A stretch of DNA of 64,000 nucleotides from Microbulbifer salipaludis (GTDB taxonomy: Bacteria; Pseudomonadota; Gammaproteobacteria; Pseudomonadales; Cellvibrionaceae). The notes under the pieces are model-generated. The model was not told the origin of the DNA. It searched no databases and was given only the letters and a program-made list of their open reading frames with translations. Shown here piece by piece: positions 42,997 to 64,000 of the stretch. The DNA is taken from the NCBI RefSeq assembly GCF_017303155.1, contig NZ_JAEKJR010000003.1, forward strand, positions 1-64,000, given 5' to 3'. The first letter of the stretch is position 1, and each line of letters opens with the position of its first letter. The position numbers and the translations under genes are program-made.

Positions 42997-43287
42997 TTAA
43001 AATCCGCGCGACAAACTGCGAAGCTCATTGGTTACATTGTCCAACAGTTTTTTTGTGTTCAGTTCAGCCCCGGTCGAGAACTCTCGGGATGAAATTACTC
43101 CATAAGTGAACTCGTCGTTATCTTCCAGTTCAGAAACCGGGTTTTTTTTAGAGTCAGCCATCCTCTTAATGAAAATCATTTGATTCCTGATAGCCTCCAA
43201 CGAGGATGACGTCCCATAAACATTAATTAAACCCTCCACAGAATGAAGAGCTTGATCCGCCGCTAGCGACAACGATTGAAAACTCAT
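42997..43287 (-). CDS. Tsi6-like immunity protein (candidate)
   Basis: 96 aa, all-helical by pattern, no signal peptide. The layout resembles Tsi6 of Pseudomonas: AADQALHSVEGLINVYG, then SLEAIRNQMIFIKRM and YGVISSREFSTGAELNTKKLLDNVTNELRS, where Tsi6 has a similar SIAVKEF segment. It starts 3 bp after the toxin gene stop, overlapping expression units as toxin-immunity pairs do. AT-rich relative to the flanking genes. The match is by eye, so moderate. Confidence 0.6.
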   Translation of the reverse strand: MSFQSLSLAADQALHSVEGLINVYGTSSSLEAIRNQMIFIKRMADSKKNPVSELEDNDEFTYGVISSREFSTGAELNTKKLLDNVTNELRSLSRGF

Positions 43288-43290
43288 AAA

Positions 43291-44904
43291 TTAATGTCCA
43301 TTAAGCATTAAAAGATTGTCTTTCACGGCATCACTGACAAATAACTGTGTACCGCCACCTTTGGTCTGCACAGGATTACTCCGATTAGTCCAAGTATCAA
43401 GTATCGGCCTAGAGACACTTTGCAAGCCTGTTCCATTAGGAACCTTAAATGAAACTACATTTCTTCCTTCACCATTAATACCCAAACTATCAGGTGTTTG
43501 ACCACCAATTGGATCCAGCCAATTTCCAGCACGCCCTCCCTCTCGTACATACTGGTGCATGACATCAGGTGGAGGAAATTCCACTATTGAAACAGGCTCC
43601 CTTAAGTCAACCCCCCCCTTACTGCCCACAAGAGGATCCCCAATAGCGTCAGAAATTTGGTTTTGAGTGAATCCATTACTTTCAAGGTAGTGTCGTGCCA
43701 CTTTCGATCTGGCAGCAATGTGCTCCGGCGAGCGCCCTTTGGATTTAGCCAAATTTATTTCTTGACGAATCGGAACTCTACTGTTTCGTCGAGGCTTAGA
43801 CTTTGGTGTAGAGGAAATAGGGTTCAGACGTGCTCCTGAGGGATCTATCGACTCAAATTCTGAGTAATCAGGACTCCCATTTTTCGCTCCTTTTGCTTTC
43901 ATTAACCGCTTGCGCTGCTTCTGATACTTGGCAAAATCCAGCATAAGATCGCCTACATCCTTGAAACGAAACATCAGGCGGGCGTTTTTTGCCATCGCTG
44001 CGGCGGCGCCAACACCCCCGGTAAAAGCAGCCAGAACAATGGTGAGCACAATTTCAAAGACACCCGCACCGGCGAACTCTGATATTTCCAAACTATGCTG
44101 GGCTTTTACATAGTCTTTGGCAAAGCGACCGATGGCTCCGCGTAGTGCTGCGTCGTCGCAGACCAGGTGAGCTATTTCAAAGGCCTGTTTTAGCTGTTCT
44201 GCGGTGATCGTGGCAGGGTCGAATCCAAGCACATCCACGACTTCTTTTTTGACTTCCCCCTGGTATTCTCTACCGGATTCCCCGAAGCGTTTCTCATGGA
44301 CGAAATAATCGTATGTAGCACCGAGCACCTGGGTTTGCATACGAATGGGGTTGATCACCATCGCCACTTCGGCGAGGTCTTTTGCCCATACCGCAAGCCC
44401 CCACACGGCGTCACCAAATCCCTGTGCGCCCCGGGAAAGATGCGCCCCCACTTTTTCAAGTGCACCGCGCTGCTCATGAACGGCCTGGATATGCGCTGCT
44501 TCGATACGCTCTTCCGCAACAATCTTCTGCAAAGACAGACGAATTTTTTGCCGAATATGAGACTGCCGCTCCTCCAGGATGGCCTCGCCCAGTGGCGCCT
44601 CTTCAATCAGGATCTGATGTCGGCGCACGGCGGTGTACACGGCTTTGTGTTCTTCAGAAAAATGCGCGGGGATACCGGGGAACTGAGCGACGTGTAGCGA
44701 AGACGTCTCGCCCACCGAAAGCGCGCTGACCATGCATTGCTGGTTGTGGGCCAGAAATTGCTCGAATATCTGATCCAGAGCCGTGGGAGGGAAGGACGTC
44801 AGCAACTCGGCGGAGGCATCGTTCTCGAATATCGTGCCGGGGCTTTGCCAACCTTCAACAGCCCGAAATCGCTGGCCAAACTTATTTTCTATATACACCT
44901 GCAT
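43291..44904 (-). CDS. Polymorphic toxin with Tse6/Toxin_46-like C-terminal domain
   Basis: 537 aa. Residues 1-265 are soluble and not assigned. A hydrophobic segment near residues 278-300 (GVFEIVLTIVLAAFTGGVGAAAA) is followed by a basic linker and a C-terminal tip from about residue 430: DVMHQYVREGGRAGNW, PDSLGINGEGR, and GGGTQLFVSDAVKD. This tip resembles the NAD(P)+ glycohydrolase tip of Tse6 (Toxin_46 family), a type VI secretion effector. No PAAR, VgrG or T6SS genes are in the window. Base composition falls sharply to AT-rich over the tip. SD GGGAAA supports the start. Confidence 0.65.
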   Translation of the reverse strand: MQVYIENKFGQRFRAVEGWQSPGTIFENDASAELLTSFPPTALDQIFEQFLAHNQQCMVSALSVGETSSLHVAQFPGIPAHFSEEHKAVYTAVRRHQILIEEAPLGEAILEERQSHIRQKIRLSLQKIVAEERIEAAHIQAVHEQRGALEKVGAHLSRGAQGFGDAVWGLAVWAKDLAEVAMVINPIRMQTQVLGATYDYFVHEKRFGESGREYQGEVKKEVVDVLGFDPATITAEQLKQAFEIAHLVCDDAALRGAIGRFAKDYVKAQHSLEISEFAGAGVFEIVLTIVLAAFTGGVGAAAAMAKNARLMFRFKDVGDLMLDFAKYQKQRKRLMKAKGAKNGSPDYSEFESIDPSGARLNPISSTPKSKPRRNSRVPIRQEINLAKSKGRSPEHIAARSKVARHYLESNGFTQNQISDAIGDPLVGSKGGVDLREPVSIVEFPPPDVMHQYVREGGRAGNWLDPIGGQTPDSLGINGEGRNVVSFKVPNGTGLQSVSRPILDTWTNRSNPVQTKGGGTQLFVSDAVKDNLLMLNGH

Positions 44905-57656: not shown

Positions 57657-58742
57657 ATGAACGATCCCCAAAACCCCGACACATTCGCTGAGACCACAAC
57701 CGCACCTGTGCGCCTGACGCAATACAGCCATGGCGCCGGCTGTGGCTGCAAAATCTCCCCTGCGGTGCTGGACAGGATTCTCGCTGATAGCGGCAATCCG
57801 TTCGATGATCCCAACCTGTGGGTAGGCAACAGTGCGCGCGACGATGCTGCGGTGTACGCCCTCGACGATACCCGCGGAGTGGTATCCACCACCGACTTCT
57901 TCATGCCCATTGTGGATGATCCCTTCGACTTTGGCCGCATCGCCGCCACCAACGCGATCAGCGACATATATGCCATGGGCGCCGACCCCCTGATGGCCAT
58001 CGCGATACTCGGCTGGCCCGTCAATCTGCTGCCACCGGAAGTCGCGCGCGAAGTCATTCGCGGCGGCCGTGCAGTGTGTGCCGAAGCCGGTATTCCATTG
58101 GCCGGCGGCCACTCCATCGACGCACCCGAACCGATATTCGGTCTGGCAGTTACCGGCGTTGTGGAGAAAGCGCTATTGAAACGCAACGATACTGCGACCG
58201 CAGGGTGCCGGCTGTACCTGACCAAACCACTGGGCATTGGCATACTGACCACAGCCGAAAAACAGGGAAAACTGCGCGCACAGGATGCAAACACAGCCCG
58301 CGACCTGATGTGCACACTCAACCGCGCCGGCAGCCGCTTCGCACGTATTCCCGCCGTCACGGCCATGACCGATGTCACTGGCTTTGGACTACTTGGCCAC
58401 CTGGTCGAGATGGCCGATGGCAGCGGACTCACCGCCATGCTCGACTTTTCTGCCGTACCGCGTATCGCCGGGGTTGAACACTACCTCGAGCACGGCTGCG
58501 TACCCGGTGGCAGCGGGCGTAACTTCGACAGCTACGGGCATCGCGTACAGCTGGCAGAAGAACAACAAAAACGACTGCTCGCCGACCCCCAAACCAGTGG
58601 TGGACTACTCGTAGCCGTCACCCCGGAAGGAGAGCCCGAATTTCTTGCCGCCGTCGCGGAAGCCGGCCTGCAGCTTTCCCCCATCGGCACGCTGGTCGCC
58701 CGGGATAGCGCCGCCGAGACACCTGCGGTCATCGTGCGATGA
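57657..58742 (+). CDS. selD: Selenide, water dikinase
   Basis: 361 aa, makes selenophosphate from selenide and [19 protein letters not shown] contains the catalytic Cys29 and Lys32 (Cys17 and Lys20 of E. coli SelD); it is a cysteine form, not selenocysteine. [11 protein letters not shown] and [18 protein letters not shown] bind nucleotide and metal. ATG MNDPQNP is preceded by GGAG. It overlaps mnmH by 4 bp (ATGA). Confidence 0.96.
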
Positions 58743-59869
58743 GCAAAAGCCCCAGCATGAACAATATCTCCAAACCGCGCCCGGACAGCGAGAACTACCG
58801 CGATATCTTTTTGCGCGACCTTCCGCTAATCGACACCCGCGCCCCCACGGAGTACAGCAAGGGCTCTTTCCCCACCGCGGTCAACTTACCGCTCATGACC
58901 GACGCCGAGCGGCAAAAGGTCGGCACCTGCTACAAACAGCATGGTCAGCAAGCGGCCATCTCCCTCGGCCACACGCTTGTCCGCGGGAAAATAAAACAGC
59001 AGCGGGTGGACCGGTGGGCGGAGTTTGCTCAGGCGAACCCCCAGGGCTACCTGTTTTGCTTTCGCGGCGGACTGCGCTCCCAGATCAGCCAGCAATGGCT
59101 ACATGAAGCCGGTGTCGACTACCCCCGCATCACCGGCGGCTACAAGGCAATGCGGAGTTTTCTCCTTCAGGAAATTGAGAGTGCCGTGCAGCAATGCCAG
59201 TTTATCCTGGTGGGTGGCATGACCGGCACCGGCAAGACCGAAGTGCTCGCGCAACTGGAGAATGCGGTGGACCTAGAAGGCCACGCCAACCATAGGGGGT
59301 CCAGTTTCGGCAAACGGGCAACGGCGCAACCGCCACAAATCGGCTTCGAAAACGCACTGGCCATCGACCTGCTAAAACGGCGCGCCGCTGGCCAGCAGCA
59401 GTTTGTACTGGAAGATGAAAGCCGGCTGATCGGAAAATGCTCGATTCCATTTTCCCTACATCAGCGCATGGCCACACTGCCCATCGCCTGGCTGGATGAC
59501 GCATTCGAAAACCGCGTCGAGAGAATCCTGCGGGATTATGTGATTGACCTGTGCGCTGAGTTCATCGATTGCTTCGGCACAGAAGAGGGACCAGAAAAAT
59601 TCGCCACCGCACTACTGCAAAACCTGTCAAAAATATCGAAGCGCCTTGGCGGCCAACGATATCAGGAACTTCAGGCAATCATGCAACAGGCCTTGCAGGT
59701 TCAAAGCAGTAACGGCGATGTCGAACATCACCGCGAATGGATAACCCGCCTCCTGCGTGACTACTACGACCCCATGTACGACTACCAGATATCACAGAAG
59801 TCTGACCGCATAATCTTTCGTGGCGATCAAACAGCAGTGGTGGAGTTCCTCAAGGCAAACCATGCATAA
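58739..59869 (+). CDS. mnmH: tRNA 2-selenouridine synthase
   Basis: 376 aa. N-terminal rhodanese domain with [12 protein letters not shown] (catalytic Cys near residue 107), and a P-loop [10 protein letters not shown] near residue 160 in the C-terminal part. It replaces sulfur by selenium at U34 of Lys, Glu and Gln tRNAs, using selenophosphate from SelD. No selA/selB are seen, so this pair probably serves selenouridine only. Its stop codon TAA (59867-59869) coincides with the edge of the cassette array. Confidence 0.96.
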
Positions 59870-59966
59870 GGCAAGGCGTTCTGTAGAAAACCGATATATC
59901 GCGATATCAACCGCTGGCCGATACTAAAGTTAGCCGACTTCTTGAGATACCAACGCTTGTTAAATG
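59864..59966 (-). repeat. attC site 0, degenerate terminal copy
   Basis: R'' box GCATTTAAC (minus of 59959-59967 area, GTTAAAT on plus at 59959-59965) is normal; the R' side, GCATAAG at 59864-59870 on plus, differs at the last base from GCATAAC and lies over the stop codon of mnmH. L-type arms AAGGCG and CGCTTG are visible. It ends the array. Confidence 0.55.
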
Positions 59967-60300
59967 CTAATGGGCACTGACCTTTGAGAAAAGATTTATG
60001 ACGGCTACGCCAGAAATTATCAATGCCATGCCAATTACACTCGCCACATCCAATTTTTGACCAAACATTATCCAGCCTAAAATTGAAATCAGTACAATAC
60101 CTAAACCAGCCCAAATTGCATAAGCGATGCCAACAGGAATTGCCTTTAAGGCCAGTGAAAGAAAATAGAATGCGAAGGCGTAACCCAGAACAACAACCAC
60201 GCTAGGCCAGAATTTTGTGAAGCCCGAACTGGCCTTCAGGCTCGATGTTGCGATCACCTCAGCAACAATAGAAACGCCAAGAAAAAAACCAACTTTTCAC
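59967..60300 (-). pseudogene. SMR-family multidrug efflux protein gene, frameshifted at a T7 run
   Basis: Four-helix small multidrug resistance protein (EmrE/QacE/QacH type): [45 protein letters not shown] and [14 protein letters not shown]. The N-terminal part is in another frame: GTG at 60298-60300 gives VKSWFF, then a T7 run (minus of 60282-60288) shifts the frame; removing one T restores [15 protein letters not shown]. The membrane-embedded Glu (VAEV) falls in the frameshifted part, so a protein starting at the downstream GTG (60257) would lack it. Could be a true pseudogene, a slippery phase-variable tract or a sequencing error. Confidence 0.75.
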
Positions 60301-60401
60301 AAAAATTATCCTTATAAAAATGCACCGAGAAGGTTACTAAAATGGCTGCATAAAGTTCAGTTTCATTATATCCGGCTACCTATGCGCAATTTTCAGAGCT
60401 C

Positions 60402-60518
60402 ATTTAACGCCGTGCGCAGCAGCGGCTTACTTTGTGTGCTTTTTGCACGAAAATGGGAGCGCAGTGACCGTGCAAAAAGTGCACAAAGTAAGACGTCAGC
60501 TGCCGCACCTTGTTATGC
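60402..60518 (-). repeat. attC site 1
   Basis: 117 bp. R' GTTAAAT (plus ATTTAAC, 60402-60408) and R'' GCATAAC (plus GTTATGC, 60512-60518), with inner imperfect arms around TACTTTGTG and CACAAAGTA that fold as a long hairpin. Confidence 0.85.
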
Positions 60519-60905
60519 ATCTAAGGCCCCGAAAATACGCACCTTTTCTCGTTTATACAGATTTATTGTGAAATATCCCCAATAAGTACCTATCGCGCCT
60601 GCTAATAGAATCAGTAAGAGTGTGAGCTGCGAGCCCACGTTGGACGCAATGGCAATGTAAGCTGCTAGTGCGCCAGCCAAAAACGCTATACAAGTTACCC
60701 AACGATACATCGGTACGTGAGCAAGTAGCGCCTTTACAACGCGATCAAAGAACGTAGTAATTGAGAACAAGAGGACGGGAATGCCTAAAATATATCCACC
60801 GCCTGCGATGAAAGTCACTCCTAGAACCATGAACAGATAGCCCGAGAAGATTCCTTTAAATAGGGTAAAGAGATCCCACCCATCTGTACTTGGTAAATTA
60901 CTCAT
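60513..60905 (-). CDS. Cassette membrane protein, function unknown
   Basis: 130 aa. Four hydrophobic segments: GYLFMVLGVTFIAGGGYILGIPVLLFSI, VTCIAFLAGALAAYIAIA and LTLLLILLAGAIGTYWGYFTI. No family recognised. Its TAA stop is inside the attC1 R'' box. Starts 10 bp after attC2's R' box. Confidence 0.65.
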   Translation of the reverse strand: MSNLPSTDGWDLFTLFKGIFSGYLFMVLGVTFIAGGGYILGIPVLLFSITTFFDRVVKALLAHVPMYRWVTCIAFLAGALAAYIAIASNVGSQLTLLLILLAGAIGTYWGYFTINLYKREKVRIFGALDA

Positions 60906-60914
60906 ATTTAAGAT

Positions 60915-61034
60915 GCATAACGCCCAGCGCAGGCGCAGCCAGCGCGGAGCACATTTTGTGTTAATGTTTGAGCGCCAGCGAGCAACACAAAAGGTGCGTA
61001 GCGTTGGCTGTCGCTCTGCCGCTGATTGTTATGC
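60915..61034 (-). repeat. attC site 2
   Basis: 120 bp. R' GTTATGC (plus 60915-60921) and R'' GCATAAC (plus 61028-61034). The arms GCGCAGCCAGCGCGGAGC and GCGTTGGCTGTCGCTC are complementary with bulges. Nearly the same sequence as attC4 and attC7. Confidence 0.88.
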
Positions 61035-61035
61035 A

Positions 61036-61410
61036 CTACTCGCTAGGAGCCTGGAAAATAGCTTGCCCCGAGACCAGACAATGTTTTGCTCCATCTATGG
61101 AAAACATTGCTTCACACTGGCTTCTTGAATCTGGCCACTCTTCCATTACGCTATTTATTAAATTTACTTTCTCGGAGATATCGCTACTACCGAGGTAATA
61201 GAAAGTAAAGTTACCACGATTCGAGTACGCGGTTACTATACAAAACCGTACACGGCATGAATTTACCACTCTTTCTGAGTTTACTCGATCAATGCTCCAT
61301 AGAATGAACTGCTGCTCATAAAAACTCTTTATCTGAGGCTTGAAAACCAGTGCAGTAAGGATCAGAAAAGCCAGAATCAATACCACTAACATCTTCCTTG
61401 ATGTGCTCAT
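61036..61410 (-). CDS. Cassette protein with N-terminal transmembrane helix
   Basis: 124 aa from ATG (MSTSRKMLVVLILAFLI) with GGAGAG upstream; a longer open frame reads into attC3 and is rejected. One hydrophobic helix, then a soluble part with four cysteines (NSCRVRFC, SQCEAMF, KHCLVSG) that may pair outside the cytoplasm. Not recognised. Confidence 0.65.
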   Translation of the reverse strand: MSTSRKMLVVLILAFLILTALVFKPQIKSFYEQQFILWSIDRVNSERVVNSCRVRFCIVTAYSNRGNFTFYYLGSSDISEKVNLINSVMEEWPDSRSQCEAMFSIDGAKHCLVSGQAIFQAPSE

Positions 61411-61425
61411 GCAACTCTCCGTATT

Positions 61426-61542
61426 GCATAACGCCGCGCTCAGGGGCGGCTTGCTTTGTGTATTTTTTGCGCAACAATGGAGCGAAGCGACGGCGCATAA
61501 AGTGCACAAAGTAAGCCGTCCCGTTGCAGCGCATTGTTATGC
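61426..61542 (-). repeat. attC site 3
   Basis: 117 bp. R' GTTATGC (plus 61426-61432) and R'' GCATAAC (plus 61536-61542). Internal arms around GGCTTGCTTTGTG and CACAAAGTAAGCC pair. Related to attC1. Confidence 0.85.
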
Positions 61543-61544
61543 GC

Positions 61545-61985
61545 TTACTCTGAGCGCCATAGGACCTCTGTTAAAACTGGAAACTCACCGTAACTCAGCA
61601 CGATTTCTTTTTCCAAACTGTCATTTAACCCGCTAAATCCAAGGTAAACATAGTGATCGAAGCAACCCTGCACCATAATGTCTCCCTGCTTAGGTCTTAC
61701 CTTTACCACCTCTAAATCATTGAATTCATAAGGCAGCTCATTATTTTGTAGCCTGGAGTATCCACCGAATGGCGTATCTTCACTCAGAGAGTAGTTATGC
61801 ATTTGATGGTAGAGCAACTCCAAACGCTCTTCAGATAATGAGCGTGCATATCTAACAGCCTCAGAGTCTTCATCACAAGAAGGACGGTCCCAGCCAAAAA
61901 TAAACCCACCGAGAATGAAAAAGAATAAGCAAATACCAAGAAATGCCGAGGTTAAGATTCCTATAAGTTTGAGAGTAAACTTCAT
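61545..61985 (-). CDS. Cassette protein with single TM helix, function unknown
   Basis: 146 aa. N-terminal helix LIGILTSAFLGICLFFFILGGFIF, then a soluble part (WDRPSCDEDSEAVRYARSLSEERLELLYHQM, GCFDHYVYLGFSG). Two cysteines. Its TAA stop lies 2 bp from the attC3 R'' box. No family recognised. Confidence 0.65.
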   Translation of the reverse strand: MKFTLKLIGILTSAFLGICLFFFILGGFIFGWDRPSCDEDSEAVRYARSLSEERLELLYHQMHNYSLSEDTPFGGYSRLQNNELPYEFNDLEVVKVRPKQGDIMVQGCFDHYVYLGFSGLNDSLEKEIVLSYGEFPVLTEVLWRSE

Positions 61986-61995
61986 CAGTCTCTAC

Positions 61996-62115
61996 GCATA
62001 ACGCCCAGCGCAGGCGCAGCCAGCGCGGAGCGCATTTTGTGTTAATGTTTGAGCGCCAGCGAGTAACACAAAAGGTGCGTAGCGTTGGCTGTCGCTCTGC
62101 CGCTGCTTGTTATGC
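61996..62115 (-). repeat. attC site 4
   Basis: 120 bp. R' GTTATGC (plus 61996-62002) and R'' GCATAAC (plus 62109-62115). Nearly the same as attC2 and attC7. Confidence 0.88.
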
Positions 62116-62436
62116 ATTGCGCTGGCACTTATGTTTGGGCTTAAACTCCAGGACTTTGTTGTACGTGTCACCTACAACGTAAGTTCCTTTTTTGAACCGG
62201 TACTTGCTTAGCGTCTTGATGGCGGCTCTATTGAATATTTCCGTTTCTGCCTTGACGACCTTTATATTTTTAGCCTCTCCAGCTTCATCAATTTGGAAGG
62301 CTAGCTTTACTGATCCCGATAGCTCTCTACAAACCGGAGGCATTGGGTAGATTGGCTCTATCTCCTCAACTGCCTCTTGGGCAACCGAGATCGCTGAAGA
62401 AAAGACCAAACTAAGTGTAAGTACGAATTTTCTCAT
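62110..62436 (-). CDS. TonB-C-like small secreted cassette protein
   Basis: 108 aa with a signal peptide (MRKFVLTLSLVFSSAISVAQ). The rest resembles the C-terminal TonB domain: YPMPPVCRELSGSVKLAFQIDEAGEAKNIKVVKAE and AAIKTLSKYRFKKGTYV. There is no TM anchor beyond the signal. The stop TAA is within the attC4 R'' box. TonB energy transfer is unlikely without an anchor; a secreted or periplasmic role is inferred. Confidence 0.7.
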   Translation of the reverse strand: MRKFVLTLSLVFSSAISVAQEAVEEIEPIYPMPPVCRELSGSVKLAFQIDEAGEAKNIKVVKAETEIFNRAAIKTLSKYRFKKGTYVVGDTYNKVLEFKPKHKCQRNA

Positions 62437-62443
62437 TACTGAT

Positions 62444-62541
62444 GCATAACGCCGCTAGCAGGGGCAGCCGGAGCGCAGCGTAGGCTGTCCAGCCCGGGGC
62501 CCCGCAGGGGCCTTGGGCGATCTTGCCTAGCCTGGTTATTG
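62444..62541 (-). repeat. attC site 5
   Basis: 98 bp. R' GTTATGC (plus 62444-62450) and R'' CAATAAC (plus GTTATTG, 62535-62541). GGCCCCGCAGGGGCC forms its tip hairpin. Confidence 0.8.
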
Positions 62542-62824
62542 CGGCCGCACTCTGAACCAGCTACTAGCACTATGCCAGCCACGACTTGGCTGGCCACTGC
62601 CTAAAATTTACGAGGAAAGAATAACGCACATTCCCCAATTATTTTCCATCTTACTGGCACTCCGAAAGATAACTCCGGACTGCCCTCTTCTACCAAAACA
62701 GACCGAACACTCTAGGAACGGATCTGATTGAATAGCAACCGGCCAAAACGGCTCGATATTGGAAGCTATTTAGTGGCACTAAAATTTCAGCAACCACGAA
62801 AAACAAAAAAATACCGACCGGCAC
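62542..62824 (-). other. ORF-poor cassette body
   Basis: 283 bp with no open frame longer than about 50 codons on the minus strand. The best start-bearing frame is the 44-aa frame listed separately; a second short frame ending in NWGMCVILSS (about 49 codons) lacks a clear start near its beginning. A GCCAGCC-ACGACTT-GGCTGGC arm pair lies near 62571-62591. May hold a small RNA, a decayed gene or nothing. Confidence 0.55.
62690..62824 (-). CDS. Possible 44-aa peptide
   Basis: GTG immediately after the attC6 R' box opens a 44-codon frame with hydrophobic start VPVGIFLFFVVAEILV and ending GLFW. Evidence is weak: no ribosome binding site and unknown sequence. Confidence 0.2.
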   Translation of the reverse strand: MPVGIFLFFVVAEILVPLNSFQYRAVLAGCYSIRSVPRVFGLFW

Positions 62825-62906
62825 CAATAACGCCGCCAGCACAGGCCGGAGCACGCAGTGCGGAGGTCCAGCCCCGAAGGGGCGATTGTGCCTGGCCTTG
62901 TTAAGT
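62825..62906 (-). repeat. attC site 6
   Basis: 82 bp, shortest of the set. R' GTTATTG (plus 62825-62831) and R'' ACTTAAC (plus GTTAAGT, 62900-62906). The tip is CCCCGAAGGGG. Confidence 0.82.
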
Positions 62907-62912
62907 GCTGAG

Positions 62913-63146
62913 CTACTTGCACGCTAGACACTCCACATTATTAATTGTTGAATATTCCGCAAACCAGTAATGCGGGTCATTTATTTTCCGGTACTCCAAA
63001 GCCTCGGATTTATAGGGCTTGTGAAAGCGACGTTTCAGGATTACTAAATTTTTGCACTTTGGAGGCCATCCAGAAGCTTCAGCTACTTCGTTACCACGAG
63101 CTAGCTCTACATTTAGAATTTCATTCAGCTCACTCGACTCGAACAA
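62913..63146 (-). CDS. Small cassette protein, function unknown
   Basis: 77 aa if the TTG at 63146 is used; AAGGAG lies 9 bases upstream of it. The frame also opens at a GTG (63167) within the R' box of attC7, which would add seven residues but has no ribosome binding site. Contains VILKRRFHKPYKSEALEYR and four cysteines in all, among them NNVECLACK. Not recognised. Confidence 0.5.
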   Translation of the reverse strand: MFESSELNEILNVELARGNEVAEASGWPPKCKNLVILKRRFHKPYKSEALEYRKINDPHYWFAEYSTINNVECLACK

Positions 63147-63165
63147 TTCTTGATTCTCCTTGGGC

Positions 63166-63285
63166 ACTTAACGCCCAGCGCAGGAGCAGCCAGCGCGGAG
63201 CACATTTTGTGTTAATGTTTGAGCGCCAGCGAGTAACACAAAATGTGCGTAGCGTTGGCTGTCGCTCTGCCGCTGCTTGTTAAGT
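63166..63285 (-). repeat. attC site 7
   Basis: 120 bp. R' GTTAAGT (plus ACTTAAC, 63166-63172) and R'' ACTTAAC (plus GTTAAGT, 63279-63285). Internal sequence is almost the same as attC2 and attC4, though the ends differ. Confidence 0.9.
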
Positions 63286-63801
63286 GCAGTCACACTCGAA
63301 TACCTCGTAGTCGAATACCGAATTTTCCTCTACCCATTGAAACCAGTGCATGTCGAAGGAAAGAAAAACTCCTTTCAATTCACATGGTAAGTTTTCTGCC
63401 TTAAATTTAGCTTCTTCTTTTAGCTCTTTCTTTAGGCTTCTACGATTAGATAGGCTTAACGATCGAAAATTTCTTGGAAGCTTGTTATCACAAAGTGTGC
63501 GAAAGATATATTTTTCTACTGCCTTAAGCTCTCTGTTTATTGCCAGTATTTTGAGATTAACATTTCCTGGAATTAACCCCCTTTCGTAAGCCCAAAACTG
63601 ATCCTCTAGCTTAAAACCAGAACCAAGCACTACGAGTTTCCCGTGCCTTTTATCTATGATTACTCCACTTGATCCGATGTAGCCAATAGGAAAGAAATAA
63701 TAGGAGTCTTTCTCAATCCTAGAGCCATTGTTCCAGGTCAAACCTTCAACTTGGCAATACTTTCTTGCTATTACTTCTGCCTCTTCAAGAGATAGTGACA
63801 T
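63280..63801 (-). CDS. Imm35-like cassette protein
   Basis: 173 aa. The N-terminal half SLEEAEVIARKYCQ ... YYFFPIGYIGSSGVIIDKRHGKLVVLGSGFKLEDQFWAYERGL follows the Imm35 (immunity protein 35 / YrhB-like) pattern. The C-terminal half is basic (NRRSLKKELKEEAKFKAENL) and unassigned. ATG at 63801 is chosen; a GTG lies three codons earlier. The stop is in the attC7 R'' box. No toxin is adjacent. Confidence 0.6.
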   Translation of the reverse strand: MSLSLEEAEVIARKYCQVEGLTWNNGSRIEKDSYYFFPIGYIGSSGVIIDKRHGKLVVLGSGFKLEDQFWAYERGLIPGNVNLKILAINRELKAVEKYIFRTLCDNKLPRNFRSLSLSNRRSLKKELKEEAKFKAENLPCELKGVFLSFDMHWFQWVEENSVFDYEVFECDCT

Positions 63802-63808
63802 AACTTGC

Positions 63809-63925
63809 ACTTAACGCCTTGCTCACCTGCACATACTGCGGAGAGCGTTTTTGTGTATTATGGAGCGCAGCGACACACAAAAACGAGCGTAGCAGTATGT
63901 GTCAGCGTGCAGCAACTTGTTATAA
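63809..63925 (-). repeat. attC site 8
   Basis: 117 bp. R' GTTAAGT (plus ACTTAAC, 63809-63815) and R'' TTATAAC (plus GTTATAA, 63919-63925). Arms CACATACTGC and GCAGTATGTG pair. Confidence 0.85.
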
Positions 63926-63930
63926 GGCAT

Positions 63931-63999
63931 TTACTCTGCGCCTTTGATTAAGCCGGAATGGTACTCAGAGATTTGGATTACCTTTTTCGATAACTCTGA
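63931..63999 (-). CDS. Partial cassette gene at the right edge, C-terminal end
   Basis: Minus-strand frame ends SELSKKVIQISEYHSGLIKGAE with TAA at 63931-63933, 6 bp from the attC8 R'' box. The rest is beyond the window. Function cannot be judged. Confidence 0.5.
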   Translation of the reverse strand, partial: SELSKKVIQISEYHSGLIKGAE

Positions 64000-64000
64000 A

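Follow-up and report, generated by a model that had tools for sequence, protein, structure and literature searches.

A probable satellite array of a multi-site chromosomal integron between mnmH and sucD in Microbulbifer salipaludis

The stretch considered here, hereafter the window, is the first 64,000 nucleotides of contig NZ_JAEKJR010000003.1 (C3) from the genome of Microbulbifer salipaludis, coded G000 (3.98 Mb, 3 contigs, completeness 99.99%). Window positions equal C3 positions, and sequence past 64000 is cited as C3. The last 4.1 kb of the window belong to a genuine integron-type cassette array of about 6.2 kb, which holds 12 cassettes plus a terminal one and is flanked by mnmH on one side and sucD on the other. 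mnmH, encoding a tRNA 2-selenouridine synthase (58739..59869, plus strand; NF008751, 573 bits against a cut-off of 361), is the left boundary, and the distal end of the array lies at this gene, as a preliminary description of the window had proposed. The same description rightly saw a compositional shift: guanine plus cytosine (GC) content is 43-50% at 60-64 kb, whereas most bins ahead of it lie at 54-68% and those at 1-1000 and 43-44 kb are likewise low.

The cassette genes all share one orientation, on the minus strand, and lie between attC recombination sites, which are also on the minus strand and are numbered here from the attI end. Nine attC-like sites had been counted in the final 4.1 kb; eight are canonical, and the ninth, in the interval between mnmH and the last cassette gene (59867..59966, minus), is a degenerate terminal remnant at best, with an R''-like ATTTAAC, no canonical R' and a fold no better than that of shuffled sequences. 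The last cassette gene (59967..60257) is an open reading frame (ORF) of the SMR (Qac-like) efflux family, matching PF00893 at 93.9 bits over profile positions 14-93; the first ~13 family positions are unmatched in its frame, and the NCBIfam Qac models score under their cut-offs. Sites 12 (60402..60518), 11 (60915..61034), 10 (61426..61542), 9 (61996..62115), 6 (63166..63285) and 5 (63809..63925) are each supported by a detector, by folding and by a covariance model. Site 8, a short type of 98 nt (62444..62541), and site 7, of an 82-nt type (62825..62906), are supported by the detector and the covariance model, and their folds are not significant. Further sites had been predicted past 64000, and four are present there: sites 4 to 1, at C3:64222-64366, 64638-64719, 64979-65122 and 65465-65609, all found by the detector and the covariance model.

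According to the ORF list and the Pfam scan, the cassettes between these sites encode mostly proteins with no family. These include ORFs of 130 aa (60513..60905), 146 aa (61545..61985) and 176 aa (63280..63810), together with one of ~124 aa read from an internal ATG (61036..61410), which has no family over cut-off. A 108-aa ORF (62110..62436) carries a TonB C-terminal-like domain (PF03544, 41.2 bits), and the cassette at 62542-62824 contains no long ORF. Only three of the ten cassette ORFs scanned have a Pfam family over cut-off, namely SMR-type efflux, TonB C-terminal-like and GFA-family proteins, and a PADLOC run on nine cassette proteins returned nothing. The 84-aa ORF at 62913..63167 has an exact duplicate at C3:64726-64980 (L009:726-980), identical over 265 of 265 bp and set apart from it by three other cassettes, which suggests fairly recent activity of an integrase. 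Comparison with plasmids by blastn gave partial matches only, at attC sites and SMR genes.

All eight canonical sites in the window read AAC-N3-L''(9) ... L'(8)-N3-GTT, with one bulged base in L'' and a central hairpin between the arms, and the attC architecture R''-L''...L'-R' with an extrahelical base was found at 12 sites across the array. The site ends had been described as RYYYAAC and GTTRRRY; the AAC and GTT are present, but many ends read GCATAAC/GTTATGC and do not follow the strict motifs. A relaxed detector found 12 minus-strand sites in 59.8-66.1 kb versus 6 in the other ~78 kb, and on the plus strand 3 and 7, respectively. With a stricter detector the count was 6 sites, whereas 100 dinucleotide shuffles gave 0.43 on average and never more than 3. 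The suggested check with an attC covariance model bore the array out: trained on 9 of the 12 sites and run over 204 kb of the contig up to E = 1, the model recovers all 12, in and past the window, and its only other matches are 8 on the opposite strand at the same sites. Folding against 200 shuffles places 9 of 13 sites (the 12 plus the terminal one) above every shuffle, the exceptions being the terminal site and the three short ones, two of 82 nt and one of 98 nt. Two earlier attC detectors, one of which demanded strict end motifs, found none of the array sites because the unpaired 3-nt spacers and the bulge had been left unmodelled. A scan with Rfam gave only microRNA families at the hairpins, none at gathering score. 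Elsewhere in the genome, a lone strong match to the attC model (108.6 bits) lies at C2:1289969 (L237:5970-6088), with no attI core nearby; it is possibly a cassette at a secondary site.

An integrase gene (intI) reading divergently had been expected beyond 64000. The array instead ends 2 kb on, at an attI head before sucD. Here the attI core, GAATAAAACTG|TTA at C3:66042-66055, lies in a 258-bp leader that extends to C3:66296, and sucD (C3:66433-67305, minus) stands beyond it. About 140 bp separate the leader from the sucD stop codon, and this interval holds the sucD terminator region and no intI. With at least two attC sites and no nearby intI, the array falls under the definition of a CALIN (cluster of attC sites lacking integron integrases). 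It differs from a complete integron in that sucD, rather than intI, follows the head, while core and leader are those common to intI-adjoining heads and share the same junction base, so that the array start appears to be an attI. The array is most probably a satellite of a multi-site system rather than the terminus of a chromosomal integron complete in itself.

The leader was searched for in the genus, and its core was counted in 48 Microbulbifer genomes including G000 and in 96 other genomes of the family; a head is defined as an exact match to the 14-mer core, and a satellite as a head without intI within 1 kb. The core occurs in 77 copies in 26 of the 48 genomes, with up to six per genome (reversed control, 1), and in 3 copies in the other family genomes (reversed control, 4). 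An intI lies within 1 kb of 13 heads and is absent from that distance at the remaining 64. One or more attC sites come after 53 of the 64 satellites, and two or more after 43, versus 12.5% and 0.4% for random positions of the C3 contig. G000 has five heads, all leading arrays, with UbiD, class I fumarase, HipA, ParE and SucD as host genes, and no head at groEL. Grouped by upstream gene, satellites recur at the same locus in 9, 9, 8, 5 and 4 genomes; these clusters correspond to the five G000 loci, and none of their 35 exact-core heads has intI beside it.

Alignment of the mnmH-sucD leader (L009:2039-2296) with 17 others shows that all 18 end in AATAAAACTG|TTA and that their common block starts with CAG(C/A)AGCC. 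At the four aligned intI loci this block is preceded by CTGT-N8-ACAG, which we take to be a LexA-type box, and by intI; at the aligned satellites it is preceded by other DNA, several times, as judged by eye, a gene's terminator. A second leader type has other palindromic repeats and an identical core. By type, 36 heads belong to type I and 19 to type II, and 22 are unassigned. At the nine fumarase-locus heads, the 247-bp leader averages 72% identity versus 46% in the 110 bp upstream and 41% in shuffled leaders. At L303:5698-6228 and in the type II leaders at the ubiD locus, the repeat seems by eye to enter the 3' end of the preceding ORF and to encode its last residues.

The intI-bearing heads have a characteristic setting. 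Their association with groEL was examined apart from the upstream-gene clusters because the intI cluster had been grouped partly by intI itself. groEL is upstream of 12 of the 13 intI heads, and its distance from the core is 0.8-1.6 kb for 11 of them and 3.8 kb in G004; for the thirteenth, in G012, groEL is not within the analysed stretch. One of the 13 (in G042) has an intI fragment only. The CTGT-N8-ACAG box lies upstream of 12 of the 13 intI heads versus 2 of the 64 satellites; these two satellites belong to G042, and in one the box has its usual spacing.

The exact core also appears to go with one integrase lineage. The 12 full-length integrases that adjoin exact cores are 77-100% identical to the reference, the integrase of G017. 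When 21 further integrase loci were inspected for a nearby core, one in G020 stood out as unique among them: it follows groEL, encodes an integrase 84% identical to that of G017 and has a core with one mismatch. Four of the 21 loci carry B-type integrases, a second type that is ~42-46% identical to the groEL-locus integrase of G017; they stand beside sucD in G017, G032, G005 and G019 (L137, L135, L141 and L139) and share the core CGATATAACTGTTA at 353-355 bp. No core within three mismatches was found in 900 bp at 15 of the 21 loci, and one more has a poor match. The idea that the head is a property of the sucD-side integrase of G017 and G032 was dropped, as there is no leader match there and the core differs. 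At the groEL site in G002, G005, G007 and G032 a divergent integrase is found, as if integrases had been exchanged there. The cleanest cases of a single integrase with many heads are G010, G026, G027, G037 and G039, each with a single integrase over cut-off, and with 5, 5, 6, 5 and 5 heads, respectively.

An integron integrase over cut-off is present in 42 of the 48 genomes. In G000, TIGR02249 gave none over its cut-off of 265 (best 79.8 bits, on a 304-aa ORF), PF00589 gave ten matches with zero on C3, and a permissive tblastn search for a degraded intI at six loci returned hits of E 0.42 or worse only. The closest relative of G000 by shared DNA is G027, with 96% identity at the sucD head. Across groEL and its flank, G000 matches G027 at 95-97%, with homology ending just past groEL. 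The genes that border the G027 integron on its other side are found in G000 41 kb further along this contig, with order and orientation preserved. As homology resumes on the same contig, the intI platform and its array have apparently been replaced, and the gap is not an assembly end; we read this as loss of the intI locus from G000, with unrelated DNA in its place. The 41 kb now standing there (C2:2195313-2236391; L348, L361, L362) contain no exact attI core, four marginal attC-like hits, which equals the background rate, and no covariance-model match at E up to 1e-5. They hold an ORF of at least 4450 codons, presumably resembling a YD-repeat protein, and start with what we take to be a transposase-like fragment. 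A second, separate integrase loss is found in G042 (L331-L335), in which the groEL-locus intI is cut to ~90 codons and five attI heads remain.

Cassette content provides evidence of traffic between loci. Among 398 cassettes taken from 66 arrays, near-identical pairs (at least 95% over their length) number 13 of 4,213 between loci of one genome versus 7 of 73,089 between genomes. The 13 comprise 7 pairs of a satellite and an intI array, 4 of two satellites and 2 of a satellite and a B-type array (G032), and 7 of them are in the single-integrase genomes G010, G026, G027 and G039. Seven pairs were checked at their ends; in six, identity stops at most 9 bases from the G|TT bond on both sides, and the 60 bp outside the shared block are 18-73% identical. 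In G026, the cassette directly on the attI of the hipA-cluster satellite has a second copy in the intI array that differs at 1 of 535 bp. Cassettes have also turned over at satellites without intI: the five orthologous heads of G027 and G000 are 88-98% identical, whereas the first 300 bp of cassette are unlike at all five (23-62%; shuffled, 4-58%). No G000 cassette has a copy of at least 90% in G027 within the compared set.

These observations suggest, with a probability of roughly 0.8, that the mnmH-sucD array belongs, as one of several satellites, to a multi-site ('multipartite') chromosomal integron in part of Microbulbifer, worked in trans by a cognate integrase whose locus G000 has lost. 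The integrase lineage encoded downstream of groEL would act in trans on several scattered attI platforms, each consisting of a short leader that ends in GAATAAAACTG|TTA and is set after a host gene. Each platform would gather its own row of cassettes by attI x attC and attC x attC recombination, with the leaders working as attI and perhaps as a cassette promoter. Replacement of the intI locus in G000 would then have stranded five intact satellite arrays, including the mnmH-sucD array. Action of IntI on satellite heads in trans is indirectly indicated by the precise cassette copies shared between a satellite attI and the intI array.

Several observations weigh against this explanation. G000 cannot show trans action now because its integrase was not found, and the argument rests on its relatives. 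Half of the head-bearing genomes (13 of 26, including G000) have no exact-core head adjoining intI, and 12 of those 13 do hold an integrase over cut-off. The integrase found after groEL in G002, G005, G007 and G032 (L353, L168, L252 and L340, respectively) shares only 46-70% identity with the usual one and does not have the core; the 4, 1, 3 and 2 exact-core heads of these genomes may therefore be orphans or depend on a non-cognate enzyme. By row count, two or more integrases are present in at least 27 of the 48 genomes, leaving a 'one integrase' arrangement clean in some genomes only. The excess of near-identical pairs within genomes has a Fisher p of about 2e-12 in a test that takes pairs as independent, which they are not, and many arrays are cut by the ends of the analysed stretches. 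The G010 pair stays identical past the right crossover. Heads were recognized by the exact 14-mer only, so that variants are missed, and 22 of the 48 genomes show none. Additionally, no promoter stands out in the leader, in which the single promoter-like match, compared with 1.2 expected, is on the strand facing away from the cassettes.

The same data can be taken further, to a distributed network in which attI platforms were copied from the intI locus to new sites in step with one integrase lineage, giving several parallel first-cassette positions and making G000 a natural integrase knock-out. The balance for this extension is about even. It draws on the observations that the core tracks the lineage and that heads often resemble those of the same genome or lineage rather than those of the same locus. 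In the main explanation, too, satellites would arise as copies of the platform's attI end. In G042, four satellite heads match the groEL head over 252, 267, 307 and 358 bp back from the core; of these copies, the one of 307 bp retains the LexA-type box and the one of 358 bp extends into the first intI codons. When 37 heads (type I plus G042) were placed in a tree, in which 14 of 34 inner branches are open, they grouped partly by lineage: those of G042 fall with G024 and G025 (100/100), six from G001/G002 at four loci fall together (99/99), and the groEL head of G010 joins its sucD head (100/99). Other groups follow the locus, as for G000/G027 at sucD and at fumarase (100/100) and G007/G039 at a pyrophosphatase gene (99/97). 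Tree and G042 copies fit copying or conversion of platforms within lineages, although not firmly.

An ordinary CALIN history, in which each array was once a complete integron whose own intI decayed locally and whose head is a left-over, is doubtful but retains some force. Two G042 satellites speak for it, one with a LexA-type box at the usual place and another with the first intI codons; at the sucD site, G017 and G032 have an integron whose integrase is of another kind, and several genomes have heads but no cognate integrase among the integrases inspected. Nevertheless, intI is missing beside all 35 heads at the five G000 satellite loci, leaders and arrays persist across species while their cassettes differ or are common to several loci, and the sucD-site integrases of G017 and G032 pair with a different core. 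Even if each locus once had its own intI, the later cassette traffic would need trans action.

It is improbable that cassettes came to be shared without IntI, through homologous recombination between similar attC sites or through transfer of arrays between strains. The attC sites within a genome are alike, the tight grouping of the sucD and intI heads of G010 suggests conversion, and one of the seven end-checked pairs extends past the crossover. In the other six, the shared block stops at G|TT on both sides and not inside attC, with the surrounding sequence diverging as given above. Least probable is that the cassettes sit at chance secondary (attG-type) sites and that the common leader, a host promoter or a repeat, plays no part as attI. 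Leaders do contain palindromic repeats and satellites are placed after host gene ends, but this leader and core also separate the first cassette from the intI promoter region at the four aligned intI loci, the joining point of cassette ends is one and the same base of the core, and the core is at background outside the genus.

The proposed multi-site integron resembles sedentary chromosomal integrons of the Vibrio and Xanthomonas type in having intI with a divergent array, attI and attC, and, in the Microbulbifer relatives, a LexA-type box upstream of intI. It differs in that several attI-headed arrays are dispersed on the Microbulbifer chromosome and in that G000 has no detected integrase. 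The mnmH-sucD array qualifies as a CALIN in G000, but the definition of a CALIN ignores attI, whereas each Microbulbifer array keeps a conserved attI head. In Xanthomonas, CALINs occupy conserved loci, and CALINs are stated to be open to mobilisation in trans (PMC12444791); attI heads are not mentioned in the portions of that report drawn on here. In Saccharophagus degradans 2-40, from a related genus, a core integron is accompanied by five satellite sites with the same repeat, and some genes are duplicated between clusters (PMC2386152). The satellites of S. degradans are mostly linked to a transposase gene, and the consulted text of that source describes neither attI heads nor orthology between species (PMC2386152). 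No description of several attI-headed arrays on one chromosome was found in the literature titles and abstract openings searched, with subscription papers and preprints outside this scope. Satellite arrays are thus already known in relatives, and conserved attI heads at integrase-less loci appear to be new. Conserved attI heads far from intI imply that CALINs can serve as working platforms, that more than one cassette could stand first in line simultaneously and that attI sites can multiply. With five intact heads, no detectable integrase and a close relative that has one, G000 makes the fate of integrase-less arrays directly testable.

Two further features of the window lie outside the array. 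A pocket rich in adenine and thymine at 42997-44904 (44.8% GC at 43-44 kb) contains minus-strand ORFs of 537 aa and 96 aa. The four best named relatives of the mnmH product, at 70-75% identity, point to Microbulbifer as the genus, in agreement with the set of related genomes. The boundary gene mnmH is 73% identical to its counterpart in G027, and at most 75% identical to that of any matched relative, versus 92-97% DNA identity between G000 and G027 elsewhere, suggesting that mnmH has possibly been exchanged.

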